Of a stretch of 34,568 bases of DNA, positions 19,365-32,749 are shown piece after piece. The position numbers and the translations under genes were made by a program. Position 1 is the stretch's first letter; each line of letters starts with the position of its first letter. The stretch is from Pseudomonadota bacterium (GTDB taxonomy: Bacteria; Bdellovibrionota; Bdellovibrionia; Bdellovibrionales; JACTMU01): assembly GCA_014584465.1 (NCBI GenBank), contig JACTMU010000016.1:1-34568 (forward strand), read 5' to 3'. Under the pieces are notes generated by a model. It made no database searches. It was not told where the DNA came from and worked only from the letters and a program-made list of their open reading frames with translations.

Positions 19365-19436
<72 letters not shown>

Positions 19437-19441
<5 letters not shown>

Positions 19442-23191: not shown

Positions 23192-23689
23192 ATGGACGTA
23201 GCTATGCGAGCCGCGCATCTCGCTAAAAAGGAACAAATGGGAGCGGCACCACTGCAAAAGAAAATCGTCGCGAAAGTCACAGGAACATCGACAGGGCCAC
23301 TAGCGTGCCCAATTCAGACAGCGAAGAGCTACGTAATAGATGCAAACCTTGGCAATCCATCGAACGGTAAGGAAATTCAAGGCGTCGAATTCTTAATCGA
23401 TACTGGCTGCCACTTCGCCGTAGTCATTCCTGCCTTCGTAGCAGATCAAATTGGTCTCGATGAATCAACGTTGGTGAAGGTGTTCGGCATTGCCAATGCC
23501 GACGGCTCCGCTGTTGAAGCCCCAACACACAACGTGATTCTTTTAATCAATGGCATACCAATAAGAACAACTGCTGCCGTTTCTGGAACGACCGGAGAAA
23601 AGGCACTGATTGGAGCTGAGCTATTGTCGCTGTTCGATTTGCAGATCCGCGGCGATTCATGCCAACTGACTCTGGTCGCTCCAAAGTAG
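23192..23689 (+). CDS. Retropepsin-like aspartic protease domain protein
   Basis: 165 residues. Residues about 50-160 follow the single-domain aspartic protease pattern: strand VEFLIDTGCHFAVVIP with the catalytic Asp-Thr-Gly, then TAAVSGTTGEKALIGAELLSLFDLQI, matching the ILG.. second half. Such proteases work as dimers; bacterial ones are poorly understood. No signal peptide. The start is uncertain: ATG 23192 has no ribosome-binding site; ATG 23237 has AAAAGGA nearby. Function in this island unknown. Confidence 0.68.
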   Translation: MDVAMRAAHLAKKEQMGAAPLQKKIVAKVTGTSTGPLACPIQTAKSYVIDANLGNPSNGKEIQGVEFLIDTGCHFAVVIPAFVADQIGLDESTLVKVFGIANADGSAVEAPTHNVILLINGIPIRTTAAVSGTTGEKALIGAELLSLFDLQIRGDSCQLTLVAPK

Positions 23690-24150: not shown

Positions 24151-26373
24151 ATGTCACAGAAACCATTCAGTGCAAATGACTTTTATGCAGTTCTTCGACC
24201 ACTTAGAAATGCATTTGTAATCCCTCATGACCTTCCGACCGACTTCATCTTGAATCAAGTATTGCCATGGACTTCTAGTCACTGGTCAGGAGCAAACCAA
24301 TTTTTCTTCCCAATTTTCCCGCAAGGCGACGCCCATCCTGATTTCGATCGGTGGCTGAGGCTTCTTAAAAAATATGATCCTGATTTTGTCGTCAGCATCG
24401 GAAACTTCCCCTCTGCACTTTTGGACACAATACAAAGCCATACTCTTTCAAGAACGGACTGGTTCCAGTTCAACGCCCACTCGGTTGTTACTCCAAATAT
24501 GATTCAACGAGGATTTCATGGAATGGAAATCGAAGATGTTATTTGCGCATCAAACAAGACAGTGACCGTGGATGAGTTTCCACTTACGGGCAGTGCCGAT
24601 CACGACATTTGGTTTTTTTCTCAGTTCGGCAGACTAGGTGGGCATTCGGCTACCTGCGCGGGGCCAAAGATCATTGTCAATCAATCCCAAATTACTTCCC
24701 AACAAATCGAAACCTCAGCACAAGATATTGCTTACGGTCGATTCGGAAACAATTTTTCCGCGAGCCCAATGCTACACTCCTTGGAGTGTCTTGGAGGACG
24801 TTGGACCACAGGTCCGCAGGTGGACTACTTTCTGCCTTACTTTGTCGTTGTCGGTGATTCAGCGGCAGATTGGGCCCTATTCACGTCGCTCAAATATCTC
24901 TATGATGGAGTGTTTTGGATTAAACCAAGTTTACTCGCGGCCAACCAAACTGGGTACCCGGGTGATTTCGAACATTTGCTTCATCACATCCTAGCAGACG
25001 ACACAAGACAAGATGACGCGCTTGTTGTCTCTGCATCTCTTCCCCAAGCTCAAGTACAAACTCTTGTAAATGGGGTCCTCGGGTGGATTGGCCAAACATA
25101 TTCAGGGTTTCGCAGCGGGAGCTTTAGACAAACGAATGACTTCGATAATTTATCCAACTGGAAGGAATTAGCTGAGATAAATAACTCCACTGAATCTTCG
25201 CTGATTTTTGACGAGAAGAAGTCGGTGCAAAGAGTTCCTATTGTTGGGCCAAAACACTTCAGTCCAACTCCGTCGACAGCAAAGTTCATGTCGGTACTTG
25301 TCTCAGACTCTTATTCTTACTTATCACACCCACTCACTGACGCCCCCACAGCAATTTGGAAAAATCCGAGGGCAGTTGTGACAGGCGATATTCGCCGATC
25401 TTGCGATGGAGGAATTTCATTCAATTCTGTTCAGCATCTCATTTATGGCAGTCAGGATATGGATAGTGTTCAGCACGGCCCGAAGTTGATCAAACCTTCA
25501 ATTTTTGACGACTTCACATCAATTCTTAGCAAGTTCAATTTGCGACCGAGAAAAACAATCAAAACCTTGAATGTGAGTTCCGTTCTTGACCTTTGGGGTT
25601 CCACTGAAAACTTTAGCGATGACTTTTTTAGACGGGATACTAAGCGAATTTTTGAAGTATTCCGCATGGACAAGAAAACGCGGGCCCAAAAGCGAAACTC
25701 AATTGGCTTACTGAGCTCTTCGGGGCTCGAGCTGGCACAAAAGTTCTACTTTAGTCATCCGATAGCAGGTGCGTTCACGCCAGCACTTGCCGACCTGAAT
25801 GACGAAAAGCTGGATTCGTGGATTGAAAAAGGGATCATTCTTAGAGGAGAGCGCCTGGTATGCCAGAGATGCGGCTGGGCAGATTTTTACTCCGAGGAAG
25901 AGTACAGCAGGCAATTTACCTGCGATAGATGCTCGGCAACTTGGAAGAGAAATTTGAATACAATGGGCGCGATTGAACCAAGGTTCCTATACGGTCTAAA
26001 TCCATTGATTTACGGTTTGTTCGATAACACAAGTGAGTTGACGATTCTTGGGATTGACTCCCTGAAAAAGACATCAAAATGGTACCTAGAAGCTGAAACA
26101 GAGATTGAGATCCTAGACGCTCAAAACAAAGTCATTATGGAAGTGGATCTTATTGCCAACCTTGATGGGAAGTTTGTGATTGGCGAGTGTAAAGTAGACG
26201 GGGCATTGAATGGCAATCAGCTTCAAAGCTATGTGCGATTTTGCAGACAAGTAAGAGCCGATATTTTTTGCTCCGTTTCAGCGTCCTCGTGGAATCAGCA
26301 GCGGATACAGAGTATATCTGGCCAATTCAGTAGTCCCCATTTTTGTCCTGAGCTTCATTTTTTTAGCCCTTAA
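24151..26373 (+). CDS. Large protein with zinc ribbon and PD-(D/E)XK-like nuclease domain
   Basis: About 740 residues from ATG 24151, with GGAGA upstream; TTG 24130 is also in frame. Residues 1-570 or so are not recognised (FVIPHDLPTDFILNQVLPW near the start). Around residues 570-595 CQRCGW and, some 20 residues on, CDRCSA form a zinc ribbon. The C-terminal 100 contain EVDLIANLDGKFVIGECKVD, with Asp and Glu-x-Lys spaced as in PD-(D/E)XK nucleases, then a helix NQLQSYVRFCRQ. It ends 16 bases from the convergent TOTE-like primase-helicase gene. A defence or mobile-element nuclease is inferred from domain and context only. Confidence 0.72.
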   Translation: MSQKPFSANDFYAVLRPLRNAFVIPHDLPTDFILNQVLPWTSSHWSGANQFFFPIFPQGDAHPDFDRWLRLLKKYDPDFVVSIGNFPSALLDTIQSHTLSRTDWFQFNAHSVVTPNMIQRGFHGMEIEDVICASNKTVTVDEFPLTGSADHDIWFFSQFGRLGGHSATCAGPKIIVNQSQITSQQIETSAQDIAYGRFGNNFSASPMLHSLECLGGRWTTGPQVDYFLPYFVVVGDSAADWALFTSLKYLYDGVFWIKPSLLAANQTGYPGDFEHLLHHILADDTRQDDALVVSASLPQAQVQTLVNGVLGWIGQTYSGFRSGSFRQTNDFDNLSNWKELAEINNSTESSLIFDEKKSVQRVPIVGPKHFSPTPSTAKFMSVLVSDSYSYLSHPLTDAPTAIWKNPRAVVTGDIRRSCDGGISFNSVQHLIYGSQDMDSVQHGPKLIKPSIFDDFTSILSKFNLRPRKTIKTLNVSSVLDLWGSTENFSDDFFRRDTKRIFEVFRMDKKTRAQKRNSIGLLSSSGLELAQKFYFSHPIAGAFTPALADLNDEKLDSWIEKGIILRGERLVCQRCGWADFYSEEEYSRQFTCDRCSATWKRNLNTMGAIEPRFLYGLNPLIYGLFDNTSELTILGIDSLKKTSKWYLEAETEIEILDAQNKVIMEVDLIANLDGKFVIGECKVDGALNGNQLQSYVRFCRQVRADIFCSVSASSWNQQRIQSISGQFSSPHFCPELHFFSP

Positions 26374-26389
26374 AGTAATTCCTATGGTG

Positions 26390-28864
26390 TTAAGTGAATT
26401 TGTCGGGACTATCAATCGGACTCTCAAATAAACTGGCCTGTCCGTACACAATCCGCTGGGCCCTGCCAACTTCAGGAGCTTCAATTCGGTAACCCATCAT
26501 TTTGTACGCGGCCATTCTCTTTTTGAACATTGATACCGTCAGAGCACTTGAAGAATCCAAATAGTCATGAATCAGCACTTCGCTTTTACCCGTAAAGGCG
26601 CGGTGGAGCCGGCCAGCGTACTGAATCAATTTTCCCTTGAATGAAACCGGCATTGCAATGATCAGAGTGTCTAAGGCAGGCAAATCGAAGCCTTCGCCAA
26701 CAAATGAACCTGTAGCCATAATATAGGACGGGATTTTTGAGGTGAGCGCAGTATTGATTTCTGACAGCACTGCAGCTCTAGCTTTCTTTCCCATTCCGCC
26801 GACCAACGTGAAAGCCTTCACATTGCGTCCGGCAAGCTTTTTGTCGAATGCCTGGGTCAAGAGAGACAAATGTTCTTTGCGTTCTGAAATAACAAGTGGG
26901 AAACGACCTCGATCTAACGCTTCGACGAGATCATTGGCTACGAGAACGAGTCGAGCTTGGTCTGCTACCAGCTGTTCCCAGACAAGATGGATCGCCGGCT
27001 GAGGCCCTGCGTCCTCTGGCATTTTAAATTCTGTTTCTCTGACCAAGACTCGTTTCAAGAGCGCCGGTCCATCTACATGCTTGATCTCGTGCCGAATGGG
27101 TCCGCATTGCATGTGAATAATCGATTGGTGACCATCTTTTCGGTAAGGGGTCGCGGTCAAACCAACGACGTGCTTCGGAGAGCATTTTTTAAGCGTAGCT
27201 TCAAATGACACTGCCGGAATGTGGTGACATTCGTCGATGATGATTTGTCCGTAAGAACTTAACTCCTCAACTGCATCCTCCATATTGGCCAAAGTTTGCA
27301 GCATGCCGATGTCGATCTTGCCAGTTTTCTTTTTTTTATTTTTTCCGAGAGTTCCGATCTTTTTGGGATCAACGCCAAGGAACGTCGTAATCTGTGCTCG
27401 CCACTGTTCAAGCAACGGCATTCGGTGGACAAGGATCAGCGTCGGCAGCTTTCGTTTTGCAATGAGGGCACATCCCATAACAGTCTTGCCGGCGCCAGGT
27501 GGTGCAACCAGAACGCCGGTATCCATTTCCGTCATTGCATCAATGGCCTTCTTCTGAGTCGATGACAGCTCACCACTAAATGAAGCCTTGATCTTTTTGA
27601 ATGGAGGAATTGAGTTATGCAGGACAACCTGACTGCCGGCCTTCTCTGCGATCTTGAGACAGGCATCCAAACAACCCCTAGGTAGAATTAGTCGATCATG
27701 TTGAACTTCGCCGCAGAAAATATAGCGTGGCGTTTTCCAGGTCGAAAATCGCATTCGCTCAAGTTCAAAGTATTTTGGATTTGCAAATGTAGCTGTTCGC
27801 TTAAAGGCGGCTACTATTTCAGAAGGAAGACCATCGAGTTTAATTTCAATCTGATTTTTGCATTCAATGTCAATTCGCCCAGGGAAGCAACCAGCTACAA
27901 CTTTTCTCCCACCAGCATCCAGGGCTCGCTCTGCTGTGGAAACTGCGACATCCTCAAATCGTACCATCGAAAATGATTCTTGCTGCATGTGCTGATTCAA
28001 AAGAGCACGCAGGTCATCACCTGAAATTCGCTTCACACCGCTCAAGTGCGCCCACTGGTCTGGGACCTCATTTAGATTTTCATCCAAAAATACAGAGTTC
28101 CCCTTCTCTCTAGGTGCGCGTTGCAAAGGGAGCGCGATCAGGTTTCCAAACCCACCTTTCGGCAAATAGTCCTGATTAGGAAAAAATCGATCATAGGATT
28201 CAAGGCTCATGGTATGTCGAGAAGCCTGAGCTCGGGTCATGATGACGGTACCAAGTTGACGGGCAAGACGTGCTGGCACCTTCTCTGCGAAAAAGATCCA
28301 TGCATGAGCGCCTTCTCCAGAGCGAGACCGCTCAACCTCGATTTGGACGCCTATTTCGCGGCCAGCAGTTTTGTAGGCAATGGTGTCGGCACCCCAACCT
28401 TTGCCGTCAAAGTCAGCCGCCAAGAAAGTGCACGAATCATCTTCAAGAATCGAGTACGTTCCGATCGTGTGCTTTCCTTGCAGGTGATCTCGGACGGCAG
28501 TACTATCCAATTTCAAAAATGCCTGGTTGGGACAATCGGTACATTTAACCTTTGGTTTCCCGCAAACTTGCCTATCCCACTCATTCGAGCAGGCTGGTGA
28601 ATAGCCCTTAATGCCCTTCGAAGGATTTTCCCAAAGCTTGGGGTAGACCGAGGTGCGTGCGGCAAAAAGCGCGTGAAAAAGATGAACCTTGTCGTCGGGA
28701 GTTTGAACTTCGATCCCGACAGGAGAACCTATGATTTTTGGAAGTTCAGCGACTGGAGTTGCCTGAGTGCGGAGCTTTGCCAATTCAGAAACGAGGTCAC
28801 GCATCTCAGTGTCGAGAGCTTCAAGGCGTCGTTCAATATCTTGAATGCGTTGATTTTGCGACAC
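26390..28864 (-). CDS. TOTE-type primase-helicase
   Basis: About 824 residues from GTG 28864, four bases after the antitoxin stop; the frame also opens at ATG 28918 inside the antitoxin gene. A short N-terminal coiled coil (IQDIERRLEALDTEMRDLVS) leads to an archaeo-eukaryotic primase domain of the TOTE conflict type: CTDCPN, metal-binding TFLAADFDGKG, SRSGEGAHAWIFF, GFGNLIALPLQ. Then an SF2 helicase: VLVAPPGAGKTVMG, IIIDECHH, GLTATPYRKDG, GEGFDLPALDT, motif VI QYAGRLHRAF. TOTE modules combine primase, helicase and often nuclease activity and are linked to selfish or defence elements. Same direction as a toxin-antitoxin pair. Confidence 0.88.
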   Translation of the reverse strand: MSQNQRIQDIERRLEALDTEMRDLVSELAKLRTQATPVAELPKIIGSPVGIEVQTPDDKVHLFHALFAARTSVYPKLWENPSKGIKGYSPACSNEWDRQVCGKPKVKCTDCPNQAFLKLDSTAVRDHLQGKHTIGTYSILEDDSCTFLAADFDGKGWGADTIAYKTAGREIGVQIEVERSRSGEGAHAWIFFAEKVPARLARQLGTVIMTRAQASRHTMSLESYDRFFPNQDYLPKGGFGNLIALPLQRAPREKGNSVFLDENLNEVPDQWAHLSGVKRISGDDLRALLNQHMQQESFSMVRFEDVAVSTAERALDAGGRKVVAGCFPGRIDIECKNQIEIKLDGLPSEIVAAFKRTATFANPKYFELERMRFSTWKTPRYIFCGEVQHDRLILPRGCLDACLKIAEKAGSQVVLHNSIPPFKKIKASFSGELSSTQKKAIDAMTEMDTGVLVAPPGAGKTVMGCALIAKRKLPTLILVHRMPLLEQWRAQITTFLGVDPKKIGTLGKNKKKKTGKIDIGMLQTLANMEDAVEELSSYGQIIIDECHHIPAVSFEATLKKCSPKHVVGLTATPYRKDGHQSIIHMQCGPIRHEIKHVDGPALLKRVLVRETEFKMPEDAGPQPAIHLVWEQLVADQARLVLVANDLVEALDRGRFPLVISERKEHLSLLTQAFDKKLAGRNVKAFTLVGGMGKKARAAVLSEINTALTSKIPSYIMATGSFVGEGFDLPALDTLIIAMPVSFKGKLIQYAGRLHRAFTGKSEVLIHDYLDSSSALTVSMFKKRMAAYKMMGYRIEAPEVGRAQRIVYGQASLFESPIDSPDKFT

Positions 28865-28868
28865 TGGC

Positions 28869-29186
28869 TTATGAAGCGTGAGGCCGCTCTTCAACCGTGA
28901 GCCTGAGCCCCAGAGCATTCAAAAGTTTGACAATAGTTTCAAAGCGCGGCTTGGCATCTTTAGAGTCTGAGAGAATTTTGTAGAGGCTCTTTTGGCTCAG
29001 ATCGGCGGCCTCGGCAAGCTGCTCGAAACCGCGGGCCTCGGCGATATCTCGAAGCGCCATAAGAATAGCCTCGGGCATATCCGAATTCTCTTCGAGAGAA
29101 GCCTTCAAGTATTCAACCTGAAAATCGGGATCTTTTTTGAGTCTTTCAATCAGACCTTTGCGGTAATCACTGCTTCTTTTTGCCAT
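28869..29186 (-). CDS. HigA-like antitoxin
   Basis: 105 residues from ATG 29186, with AGGAG about 8 bases upstream; longer readings of the frame overlap the toxin gene. N-terminal MAKRSSDYRKGLIERLKKDP, then a helix-turn-helix of the addiction-module type (ILMALRDIAEARGFEQLAEA then LSQKSLYKILS). Expected to bind the toxin and repress the shared operator at 29527-29544. It overlaps the toxin gene by 20 bases and ends just before the primase-helicase start. Confidence 0.9.
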   Translation of the reverse strand: MAKRSSDYRKGLIERLKKDPDFQVEYLKASLEENSDMPEAILMALRDIAEARGFEQLAEAADLSQKSLYKILSDSKDAKPRFETIVKLLNALGLRLTVEERPHAS

Positions 29187-29517
29187 GGTCTCGTCTCCTA
29201 TAGTCTTGCAGGTAGGCTTTCGCTTCACGAATGTCCCGATCCTGCGATCCTTTGTCACCGCCACAGAGGAGCAAGATGATCTTGTCTCCGTCCTGGGCGA
29301 AATACACGCGGTAGCCTTTTCCAAAAGCCAGCCGTAACTCACTGACTCCTGCACCAACGGATTTCACATCACCAAGATTCCCCAATGCGACCCGATTGAG
29401 TCGAGCTGCGATTCGGGCAAGGGTCACTCTATCCTTAAAGCCATCCAACCATTCATCGAATGGCCGCTTGCCGTCGGCGGTTTCATAGGTGCGAAGTTCT
29501 TTCGGTGATGTGGCCAC
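29167..29517 (-). CDS. HigB-like (RelE/ParE superfamily) toxin
   Basis: 116 residues from GTG 29517. TYETADGKRPFDEWLDGF at the N-terminus, ARIAARLNRVALGNLGDVK, SELRLAFGKGYRVYFAQDGD and IILLLCGGDKGSQDRDI are the hallmarks of phage-derived Gp49/HigB-type toxins, usually ribosome-dependent mRNA interferases. Toxin before antitoxin is the HigBA order. The basic tail YRRRDHGKKKQ runs into the antitoxin start. Confidence 0.9.
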   Translation of the reverse strand: MATSPKELRTYETADGKRPFDEWLDGFKDRVTLARIAARLNRVALGNLGDVKSVGAGVSELRLAFGKGYRVYFAQDGDKIILLLCGGDKGSQDRDIREAKAYLQDYRRRDHGKKKQ

Positions 29518-29792: not shown

Positions 29793-30950
29793 CTAACAAA
29801 GTCCATTTATATACTCTAAAGCGCCCGGTACATTTAGAATATTGCATTCTTGGCTGTGAGTTTCCTTTTCTGTATTACAGATCACAATTTTTTCGTCAGC
29901 TTTAACCAATTCGCTGGTCTTTATAAATCGGCCAATCATTGACGAACTGGGTGAGCTGGTACTTTTAATCTCGAGGGCCAGGAGTTTTCGGCCAATTTTT
30001 ATTATCAAATCCAGTTCATAGTTATCTGAAGTTCTAAAACTAAATGTTTCAAAATCGACTCCATTTGCCTTAAGTGAACCAGTAACTTGCTCAATAACAA
30101 ATCCCTCGAAACTAAGTCCCATGTTGCGATCATTCATTAAATCCTCAAGAGTTTTGAAACCGTAAAGGCTATGCAAAAGACCACTGTCGCGCCAGTAAAA
30201 CTTTGATGCCTTTGAAACCCTCTTTTTCAAACTACTGGGATGATAGGAAGGGATCCTACGAACCAAAAACATTTCTTCGAGGAGATCAACATAGTTATTA
30301 ATTGTGTGATAAGTGACCCCAAGGCTTTTTCCCACACTACTCGCATTCCATGTTGTGCCATGAGCAGAGGCTAGTACAGAAAACAATCTTAACGCATGAG
30401 ACGGTCTCATACCACCTCCTAGCTCGGGAATGTCTCTTGAGGCAATGCTTTCCAAGTAATCCTTCTGCCAAATGAAGTACATCTCGTGATTAAGCAGCCC
30501 TCCGTCGGGATAACCGCCATAAAACCACAAATCCTTCCATGATCTTTTACCTATCTCATCTAGAATAAAAGGTGCTAGCTCCAATCTTGATACCCTGCCA
30601 GCCAATGACTCTCCGACCTCACTTATTAGATTGGGTGAGACTGAGCCCAACAGTAAGAATCGACCATTGGTTTTTCTCTTTTTATCGATTTCTGAGCGGA
30701 GCCTGTTAAATATCTCTGGACGCACCTGGGCCTCGTCTAAAATGAGCAGCTGATTGCGAGCCATCCATTCGCCCCATTCAAAATCTAGACGGTTCCAATC
30801 CTGGTCGGATTGAAGGTCAAAATACTCTCCGTCTAGTTTCTTTGCTAGGGTTGTCTTGCCGCCCTGCCTCGGGCCCATGAGGTAAACTGCCGGGAAAATT
30901 TGTAGTCTTTTCTCTATCAAGGTCTTAAGTCGCCTCTTTACATGTTTCAT
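29793..30950 (-). CDS. AAA+ ATPase with DUF4143 domain
   Basis: About 385 residues. Walker A LMGPRQGGKTTLAKKL near 25-40, Walker B LLILDEAQ near 70, FLLLGSVSPNLI sensor, a winged-helix-like part (SVGKSLGVTYHTINNYVDLL), and a C-terminal domain with DLIIKIGRKLLALEIKST, resembling the nuclease-fold DUF4143 module. Widespread in bacteria; function unresolved. ATG 30950 overlaps the TGA of the group II intron RT frame (TGATG), and there is no clear ribosome-binding site. Its natural leader and promoter probably lie beyond the intron, near 32730-32840. Confidence 0.88.
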   Translation of the reverse strand: MKHVKRRLKTLIEKRLQIFPAVYLMGPRQGGKTTLAKKLDGEYFDLQSDQDWNRLDFEWGEWMARNQLLILDEAQVRPEIFNRLRSEIDKKRKTNGRFLLLGSVSPNLISEVGESLAGRVSRLELAPFILDEIGKRSWKDLWFYGGYPDGGLLNHEMYFIWQKDYLESIASRDIPELGGGMRPSHALRLFSVLASAHGTTWNASSVGKSLGVTYHTINNYVDLLEEMFLVRRIPSYHPSSLKKRVSKASKFYWRDSGLLHSLYGFKTLEDLMNDRNMGLSFEGFVIEQVTGSLKANGVDFETFSFRTSDNYELDLIIKIGRKLLALEIKSTSSPSSSMIGRFIKTSELVKADEKIVICNTEKETHSQECNILNVPGALEYINGLC

Positions 30951-32257
30951 CAAGTAAACAGTGGCCGTTGCCGACCACTGCTCCTTTCAGAACCGTACTT
31001 GCGATTTTCCCGCATACGGCTCTTCGGTTTACGTTTCAGTTCAGTACCAAGTCCGTTCGTAATGTCAATGATCAGAGATCCAATCGTAAGCGCTGGGATC
31101 GGGTTGAGCATGAGTCGCCGTCGAAAACTCTCCCATGTATAGGAGCGTTTTTGTGAGCGGCGGTTCTCCTTAATCCAGTCGGTGAACGCCTGGATTGCTA
31201 AACCGGGCTTCTTTGTGTGAGTTTTTACTTTGAGGAAGATCTTGCGCCCCCAGTTTCTGCCCCAGTAAAAAGCAAATCCTAGGAAGGGTAGATCTCCCGT
31301 CTTTGAACGTTTGTCAAAAGCGCGAATGCCACTCTTGTCCAAGTTTAGTTTGAGACCAAACTCAGTCATACGTTCAGTGAGTGCTGCTCGAAATGCTTCT
31401 GCGGTAGCCATGTCATTGAAGACAAAAACGGCGTCGTCAGCATAGCGAACCATCTCTCCCTTTGTACTCCACTGCTTTGAGAACCATTCATCCAGCACAT
31501 AGTGAAGGTAGATATTGGCAAGCACCGGGCTCACAGGACTTCCCTGTGGGGTTCCCAACTCCTGCTTTTCAACTACCCCTCCCTCTGTGAGGATCGAGTT
31601 CCTCAGAGCTCGGCGGATAAGTCTTAGAAGTTTCTGATCGCCTATTCTTCGCTCAAGAAGTTTCATCATTTGATCGTGATTCACGGTATTGAAGAACTTT
31701 TCAATATCCATTTCCACCACAGTGCAGTTACCTGCACGTCGGTTGATCTCCTGGTAGAGTCTAGCGATGGCCTGGTGAGTATTTTTACCACTTCTAAAAC
31801 CATAGCTGTGTCTTGAGAAGATCGGCTCATAGACGGTCTCTAAGATTTTAGCCAGTAGCGTTTGGAAAATTTTGTCCTCCAAACAACCAATGGCAAGCGG
31901 TCTGAACCCGCCTTGCGGCTTTGGGATCATGACCTGGCGTGCTGGCTTCGGTCTCCAGCCACCACGATAAATCTCATTGAAGAGTTTATCGATGTTGGCT
32001 CGAAGATCCTTGCCGTACTCTTTCTTCGTGACTTGGTCGATACCCACAGCCTTTGCTCCATCGAGCTGCCGGTATGCCTGGCACAAGTTGAACTCGTTGA
32101 TGTGATGAACAAGATTGTTCATTTTCTCTTCGGGTCCAAGTCTTCGTGCTACTGAACTTATCCTCTCTAGGCCCACATAACCTTTGAACATCCCGTCTGG
32201 GCAGGGTTCTGGCATGGGCTTACTTCGGTTCGTTCGCCGTGTCTCCCTTCGCTCCAT
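30950..32257 (-). CDS. ltrA: Group II intron reverse transcriptase/maturase
   Basis: 435 residues. RT motifs: GIDQVTKKEY, IPKPQGGFRPLAI, HSYGFRSGKNTHQAI, DIEKFFNTVNHD, LGTPQGSPVSPVLANIYLHYVLDEW and the catalytic MVRYADDAVFVF (near 31435). Then the maturase domain (RRSQKRSYTWESFRRRL). There is no HNH endonuclease domain. The frame continues through domain V into domain VI, and its TGA overlaps the ATPase start. Intact by eye, so mobility is possible. Confidence 0.94.
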   Translation of the reverse strand: MERRETRRTNRSKPMPEPCPDGMFKGYVGLERISSVARRLGPEEKMNNLVHHINEFNLCQAYRQLDGAKAVGIDQVTKKEYGKDLRANIDKLFNEIYRGGWRPKPARQVMIPKPQGGFRPLAIGCLEDKIFQTLLAKILETVYEPIFSRHSYGFRSGKNTHQAIARLYQEINRRAGNCTVVEMDIEKFFNTVNHDQMMKLLERRIGDQKLLRLIRRALRNSILTEGGVVEKQELGTPQGSPVSPVLANIYLHYVLDEWFSKQWSTKGEMVRYADDAVFVFNDMATAEAFRAALTERMTEFGLKLNLDKSGIRAFDKRSKTGDLPFLGFAFYWGRNWGRKIFLKVKTHTKKPGLAIQAFTDWIKENRRSQKRSYTWESFRRRLMLNPIPALTIGSLIIDITNGLGTELKRKPKSRMRENRKYGSERSSGRQRPLFT

Positions 32258-32728
32258 GGGCGTTACCCCACTTCCCGGCTACTATGAAGACATCTGACTT
32301 CTTTTGTGGGAGTGATGGCGGACTCAGTCATCAGCTTTGCCCTACCAATCTGAGCCATCCTGCTCGACCCACGAAAGATCTCATTCGTTCCTCTAGCAAC
32401 CTTATACATGCCATGTTCTCGGACCCCGGTGGTGCCAGTTCCCTGCACTGGCTGTGCAGGTACCCCTGGTGTTGTCTTCGCTTCCGCATACTGGCTCGGC
32501 CACCACAAGCTTAATTGTTTGATGGGGCTCAATCTCTTCACGCTAAAACCCTCCGGCTTCGCATTACGGCCTGCATGATTTCTGTCTACGCTTCGTGGGA
32601 TGGGTCGCCCCATCGCTGCACGCAAGACTCGATACCCGGACCTGACGGTGTTTCCCTGCTTTGAACTAAAGATCTCGTCTCCCGACGAGGTCTCACACCA
32701 AATGGCTGTTAGAAACCTCGACTCGCAC
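30954..32728 (-). mobile_element. Group II intron
   Basis: On the minus strand it starts GTGCGAG (from 32728), the group II 5' consensus. It holds about 470 structured bases (domains I-III), a reverse transcriptase gene, then domain V (31022-30990, GAGCCGTATGCGG and matching CGTACGGTTC arms, AGC triad) and a domain VI hairpin (CAGTGG..CCACTG, 30980-30959). The 3' end is placed after GTTTAC at 30954 because introns end AY; this could be off by a few bases. It is inserted in the leader of the DUF4143 ATPase gene. Confidence 0.85.
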
Positions 32729-32749
32729 ATATCTACAATGACAACATAT

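Follow-up and report, generated by a model that had tools for sequence, protein, structure and literature searches.

A gene in a Bdellovibrio-like bacterium raises the question of what a large protein does when only its C-terminal quarter can be read. The gene encodes 740 amino acids and lies in a 34,568-nt stretch of DNA that was analyzed as a whole (“the window”). An initial annotation had described two CxxC pairs, then an Asp and a Glu-x-Lys, at the C-terminal end of an ORF with an unrecognized N-terminus. Here, we ask what the protein is made of, where its relatives occur, and what it might do.

An intact gene with full-length relatives

24151..26373, + strand: nuclease-family gene, whole, 740 aa; read from the ORF and its translation, with full-length homologues in several phyla and no family-library match

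The ORF is intact, running over 740 codons from an ATG to a stop codon. An alternative TTG start lies 21 nt upstream and would give a 747-aa protein instead; we accept the ATG because GGAG is found ~11 nt upstream of it. The motifs of the initial annotation all lie at the positions claimed, i.e., C571/C574, C591/C594, E664-V-D666, and E679-C-K681, with residues 664–681 reading EVDLIANLDGKFVIGECK. Because several bacterial classes have full-length homologues with the same motifs and N-terminal region, the ORF is not a chance one. For the protein and the homologues scanned, Pfam, NCBIfam, PADLOC, and PHROGs gave no match above cut-off, and residues 1–565 had no match in these libraries or among PDB sequences, so the N-terminus was rightly called unrecognized. 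Two sets of marginal matches were set aside: those to HlyA/CyaA are due to chance, and those to Cas12f/TnpB zinc fingers (E 0.009–0.1) reflect a generic CxxC, cover only residues 570–608, and come without RuvC.

A nuclease domain of the Can2 type

25981..26370, + strand: PD-(D/E)XK nuclease domain of the Can2/Card1/VC1899 type, residues 611–740; from the predicted core, Foldseek, and profile matches to 8bao and 1xmx
26140..26193, + strand: catalytic E664-x-D666 ... E679-x-K681, residues 664–681; present in 15/16, 16/16, 16/16, and 15/16 sequences, respectively
25843..25950, + strand: zinc ribbon, CxxC (571, 574) and CxxC (591, 594), residues 565–600; Cys invariant in 16/16, aligned to the Sec24 zinc finger

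The assignment of the C-terminus as a nuclease is well supported. Residues 628–709 are predicted to form an alpha-beta-beta-beta-alpha-beta core (helix 628–641, strands 645–655, 661–671, and 674–681, helix 688–701, strand 704–709) with a D and E-x-K active site, the combination that defines the PD-(D/E)XK superfamily. The pLDDT of this domain is 67–90 in the window model and up to 93 in the model of a homologue (L010; L numbers denote homologous loci). In Foldseek searches against the PDB, the top matches of the window model were VC1899, Can2, Cdn1, and Card1 (E 1.6e-6 to 2e-4), and those of the homologue model were Can2/Card1 (E 2.4e-4 to 2.7e-3). Similarly, a profile of the nuclease domain searched against 177,635 PDB sequences found Can2 (8bao, E 0.0014) and VC1899 (E 0.0098) first. 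The profile alignment pairs “aEiDlvalldgklilGEcK” with “NELDVATVVNNKLHIIECK”, matching the E-x-D ... E-x-K pattern and placing E664 and D666 on the E-D pair of VC1899, whose active-site residues are Glu291 and Asp293 (PMC7969007).

Conservation was assessed in an alignment of 16 sequences with 14–20% identity to the window protein. Only six columns are fully invariant: C571, C574, C591, C594, D666, and E679. E664, K681, D240, and S294 are each conserved in 15 of the 16. The exception at E664 is an Asp, and the one at K681 is found in L029, a probably decayed copy in which the first N-terminal unit is missing too. The Asp and Glu-x-Lys singled out by the initial annotation are thus held across the 16 sequences, apart from this one Lys. 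Judged by these residues and the core around them, the protein would be expected to cleave nucleic acid in a metal-dependent manner.

At E ≤ 1, neither the 740-aa protein nor its homologues matched PF09002; the likeness to Can2 appears at the profile level only. We therefore describe the domain as Can2-like by profile and predicted fold, yet leave it out of DUF1887.

The four-Cys segment directly N-terminal of the nuclease reads as an ordinary zinc ribbon, and in a profile alignment it pairs with the Sec24 zinc finger (E 2e-4). From its position, it probably contacts nucleic acid or stabilizes the adjoining domain.

A conserved N-terminal module

24190..24480, + strand: Rossmann-like unit 1 (RPxR, WxG, DPDxVV), residues 14–110; predicted beta-alpha-beta-alpha-beta in both AF2 models at low pLDDT, conserved in homologues
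24814..25125, + strand: Rossmann-like unit 2 (GDSxxDxALxxLxxL ... SxS), residues 222–325; predicted beta-alpha-beta-alpha-beta-alpha, pLDDT ~50–70, with D240 and S294 in 15/16
25483..25830, + strand: mostly helical linker domain, residues 445–560; pLDDT 70–86 at residues 451–490 in the window model and 75–83 in the L010 model

In both AF2 models, a strand-helix-strand-helix-strand order occurs at residues ~20–95 and again at ~230–316, with pLDDT mostly 30–70. These may be two Rossmann-like units, an assignment of low confidence: mean pLDDT is 48 and 55 for the two models, and the N-terminus is mostly <50, which is too poor for fold assignment. The WxG motif of unit 1 can also be written WGG, and the motif of unit 2 GDSxxDxALxxLR...SxS. 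Neither unit matched any PDB sequence. When the units were compared with each other by hhalign, they aligned end to end with an E-value of 0.0037 and a probability of 9%, which is not significant; an internal duplication is suggestive at most, and we do not adopt it. A reading of unit 2 as a TIR domain, made by eye, was likewise dropped, since the catalytic Glu is not conserved (it is Q in the window protein) and Pfam gave no TIR match.

A common housekeeping fold was looked for in the N-terminus, and no known family matched, housekeeping or other. Because the N-terminal region and the nuclease are retained together in different phyla, we consider it a genuine new module. The earlier suggestion of a “new effector or sensor domain” therefore holds as far as the novelty is concerned. 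The effector role fits the C-terminal nuclease better, and N-terminal sensing is plausible by analogy with Card1 and Can2.

The N-terminal units could also be diverged CARF domains, paired as in Can1, which would make the protein a nuclease activated by cyclic oligonucleotides in the absence of a local type III CRISPR system. The nearest relatives of the nuclease, in structure and in sequence, are all CARF-nucleases, and the pair of alpha/beta units is reminiscent of Can1. VC1899 provides a precedent, being an orphan CARF-nuclease not accompanied by type III CRISPR (PMC7969007). Some Foldseek alignments extend to ~300 columns, but the clean ones span ~120–150 columns and cover the nuclease only. 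Moreover, hhalign found no match between either unit and one Card1-like protein, whose TGGTK-type motif is absent here. Cas10 (PF22335) had no match in the window's genome, a 120-contig assembly that may be incomplete, whereas control genomes were matched; unless the assembly misses Cas10, type III CRISPR signaling cannot be the trigger in this genome. On balance, we consider diverged CARF domains unlikely.

A sporadic and often plasmid-borne family

An initial tblastn search of plasmids returned three actinobacterial matches, in the C-terminus only. The three plasmid genes are of similar size, are full-length relatives, and have the N-terminal pattern in common. Iterated searches added eight further genome contigs and then members in other genomes, including one of the window's own order (L030). 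In total, ~20 homologues have the same full-length layout, some of them frameshifted or truncated, and their hosts are Actinomycetota, Alpha-, Beta-, and Gammaproteobacteria, and the L030 genome. Plasmid-borne copies occur in Bradyrhizobium, R. erythropolis, Burkholderia glumae, S. griseorubiginosus, and Piscirickettsia; Sphingomonas and Hoyosella yielded fragments. Full-length conservation extends from Bdellovibrio-like bacteria to plasmids of Streptomyces and of proteobacteria, yet none of Pfam, NCBIfam, PADLOC, and PHROGs includes the family.

The distribution is sporadic and rich in plasmids: the family is present in 2 of 369 genomes of the window's phylum and in 5 of 296 genomes sampled from the phylum of an actinomycetotal host (that of L012). 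Frameshifts or truncations affect several copies (L006, L012, L027, L028, L029, L039, L040, and L044). Broken copies are common for genes that are rapidly gained and lost, and this may be the case here; sequencing errors in draft contigs may also contribute. In a phylogenetic tree with moderate support and long branches, the 740-aa protein clusters with Actinomycetota (84/88), while L030, from its own order, joins Bradyrhizobium (91/93), a placement suggestive of horizontal transfer. No relatives turned up in viral contigs, scanned once with an alignment and three times with single proteins, or in a phage collection. As far as seen, the family is not one of phage genes.

Mixed neighborhoods of defense and mobile-element genes

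26390..28918, − strand: TOTE-type AEP primase and helicase fusion, 842 aa, convergent neighbor; PF22548 E 6e-89, ResIII E 4e-24

The leftmost 19.4 kb of the window carries core chromosomal genes (enolase, PolA, TrmD, Ffh, and RF3) up to a tRNA-Met. The right part is island-like, with the TOTE-type primase-helicase, a toxin–antitoxin (TA) pair, an AAA_14/DUF4143 ATPase, a group II intron, and an IS256 remnant. The tRNA-Met (19365–19441, + strand) stands at the border of the two parts; a second copy of its 3′ end, which would mark an island attachment site, was sought and not found in the window's contig or genome. The primase-helicase gene is convergent with the nuclease gene on the opposite strand and so forms no operon with it. 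No TOTE AEP gene was annotated or recognized among those neighbors of homologues that were scanned. We treat it as context, not as a proven partner.

Several other features of the window deserve mention in their own right. Upstream of the nuclease gene is a small protein resembling retroviral-type aspartyl proteases (23192–23689, + strand), whose gag-asp_proteas match (E 6e-6) is just under the cut-off. At 28869–29517 on the − strand, a Gp49-like (HI1419-type) toxin ORF (29167–29517) is overlapped at its end by an HI1420-type antitoxin ORF. The group II intron (30949–32729, − strand) is apparently complete and encodes a 435-aa RT/maturase, with Rfam matches to group-II-D1D4-6 (32414–32669) and Intron_gpII (30949–31024). 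It seemingly starts with GTGCG just past an AT-rich terminator-like hairpin, and it ends directly before the ATG of the ATPase gene, which is intact and resembles the PADLOC candidate PDC-S01.

Across ~13 loci judged by eye, homologues sit in mixed neighborhoods of defense, TA, and mobile-element genes, bearing in mind that islands gather unrelated genes. In a defense cluster on a Bradyrhizobium plasmid (L034, 2464–13152), IetAS, an AbiJ-like protein, and a PrlF/YhaV TA pair lie immediately upstream of a family member, which follows yhaV after 3 bp; other homologues neighbor HTH and PIN genes, RelE and HTH genes, AbiEi with an integrase-like ORF, STAND/NB-ARC ATPases, or restriction-modification genes. 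No conserved operon partner emerged from a search across the homologous loci. The lack of a neighbor family common to all loci suggests a one-gene unit.

These surroundings bear on two other explanations. One is restriction: the protein would be an endonuclease acting alone, in the manner of type IV or type IIS enzymes, with an N-terminus that reads DNA sequence or modification and a nuclease that cuts nearby. A zinc ribbon adjoining a PD-(D/E)XK domain suits DNA cleavage, and methylase, restriction, or HATPase-REase genes are found near some homologues. However, no methyltransferase is conserved beside the nuclease gene across the homologous loci, the N-terminus resembles Rossmann-type alpha/beta units and not known modified-base readers, and Pfam gave no SRA, EVE, or similar match. 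We judge this explanation improbable. The other is that the nuclease serves the mobile elements themselves, as a recombination or replication helper or as a plasmid competition factor, and has no part in defense. Copies are often on plasmids and beside recombinases or transposases: three tyrosine recombinases lie just upstream at L036, tandem integrases at L035, and a Mu-type transposase downstream at L004. The types of recombinase vary among loci, however, and are missing at others, and the window copy is near core chromosomal genes, albeit in an island-like stretch. We give this explanation little credence.

A possible mode of action

The explanation that we favor, and hold to be rather probable, is a stand-alone, horizontally mobile Can2-type PD-(D/E)XK nuclease, controlled by a new module at its N-terminus, that acts in conflict with mobile genetic elements. 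The metal-dependent C-terminus would be the cutting part, and the zinc ribbon would help to hold nucleic acid. At rest, the N-terminal ~560 residues, i.e., the two Rossmann-like units and the helical linker, would keep the nuclease inactive. Binding of a trigger by this module, perhaps a small ligand or some part of the invading element, would release the nuclease for non-specific cutting of DNA and/or RNA, comparable to cA4 binding to CARF in Can2. Can2 itself is a cA4-activated DNase/RNase (PMC7969007).

A more specific version is possible but doubtful: an immune nuclease encoded by one gene and independent of CRISPR, with a Rossmann-like pair of a kind not described before. This pair would directly sense a ligand derived from the infection, or a nucleotide second messenger, and turn on the Can2-type nuclease, making it a new sensor class. 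If the N-terminus is indeed a sensor, the family would be a compact one-gene defense system, with a new trigger module on a type of nuclease best known from type III CRISPR signaling. It would also bear on whether stand-alone defenses based on Can2-type nucleases existed outside CRISPR.

Comparison with known systems

Among known systems, TOTE (TPR, OB, TBP, Effector) conflict systems share with this locus the AEP primase domain of the convergent neighbor. The two genes are on opposite strands, and no TOTE AEP gene was recognized among the scanned neighbors of homologues; we treat the primase-helicase as a neighbor and not as part of the same system. Type IV and type IIS restriction endonucleases similarly combine a large N-terminal region and a PD-(D/E)XK cleavage domain in a single chain, but here no reader domain was recognized and there is no methylase partner. 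Can1 (PDB 6sce) consists of two CARF domains, one dead nuclease domain, and one live nuclease domain. The 740-aa protein resembles it in having two putative Rossmann-like units per chain and one active-type PD-(D/E)XK domain, with a weak Foldseek match (rank 27, E 0.08); it differs in its zinc ribbon and in showing neither a second nuclease-like domain nor a sequence match.

The closest comparison is with Can2, Card1, and VC1899 (DUF1887, PF09002). These proteins have ~370 aa, as opposed to 740 aa here, where a zinc ribbon precedes the nuclease, the two N-terminal alpha/beta units carry no recognizable CARF motifs, PF09002 is not matched, and the genome has no Cas10 match. Like them, however, the protein appears to have alpha/beta units N-terminal to a C-terminal PD-(D/E)XK nuclease, with equal E-x-D ... 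E-x-K spacing, and they are its best matches in the PDB by both profile and fold.
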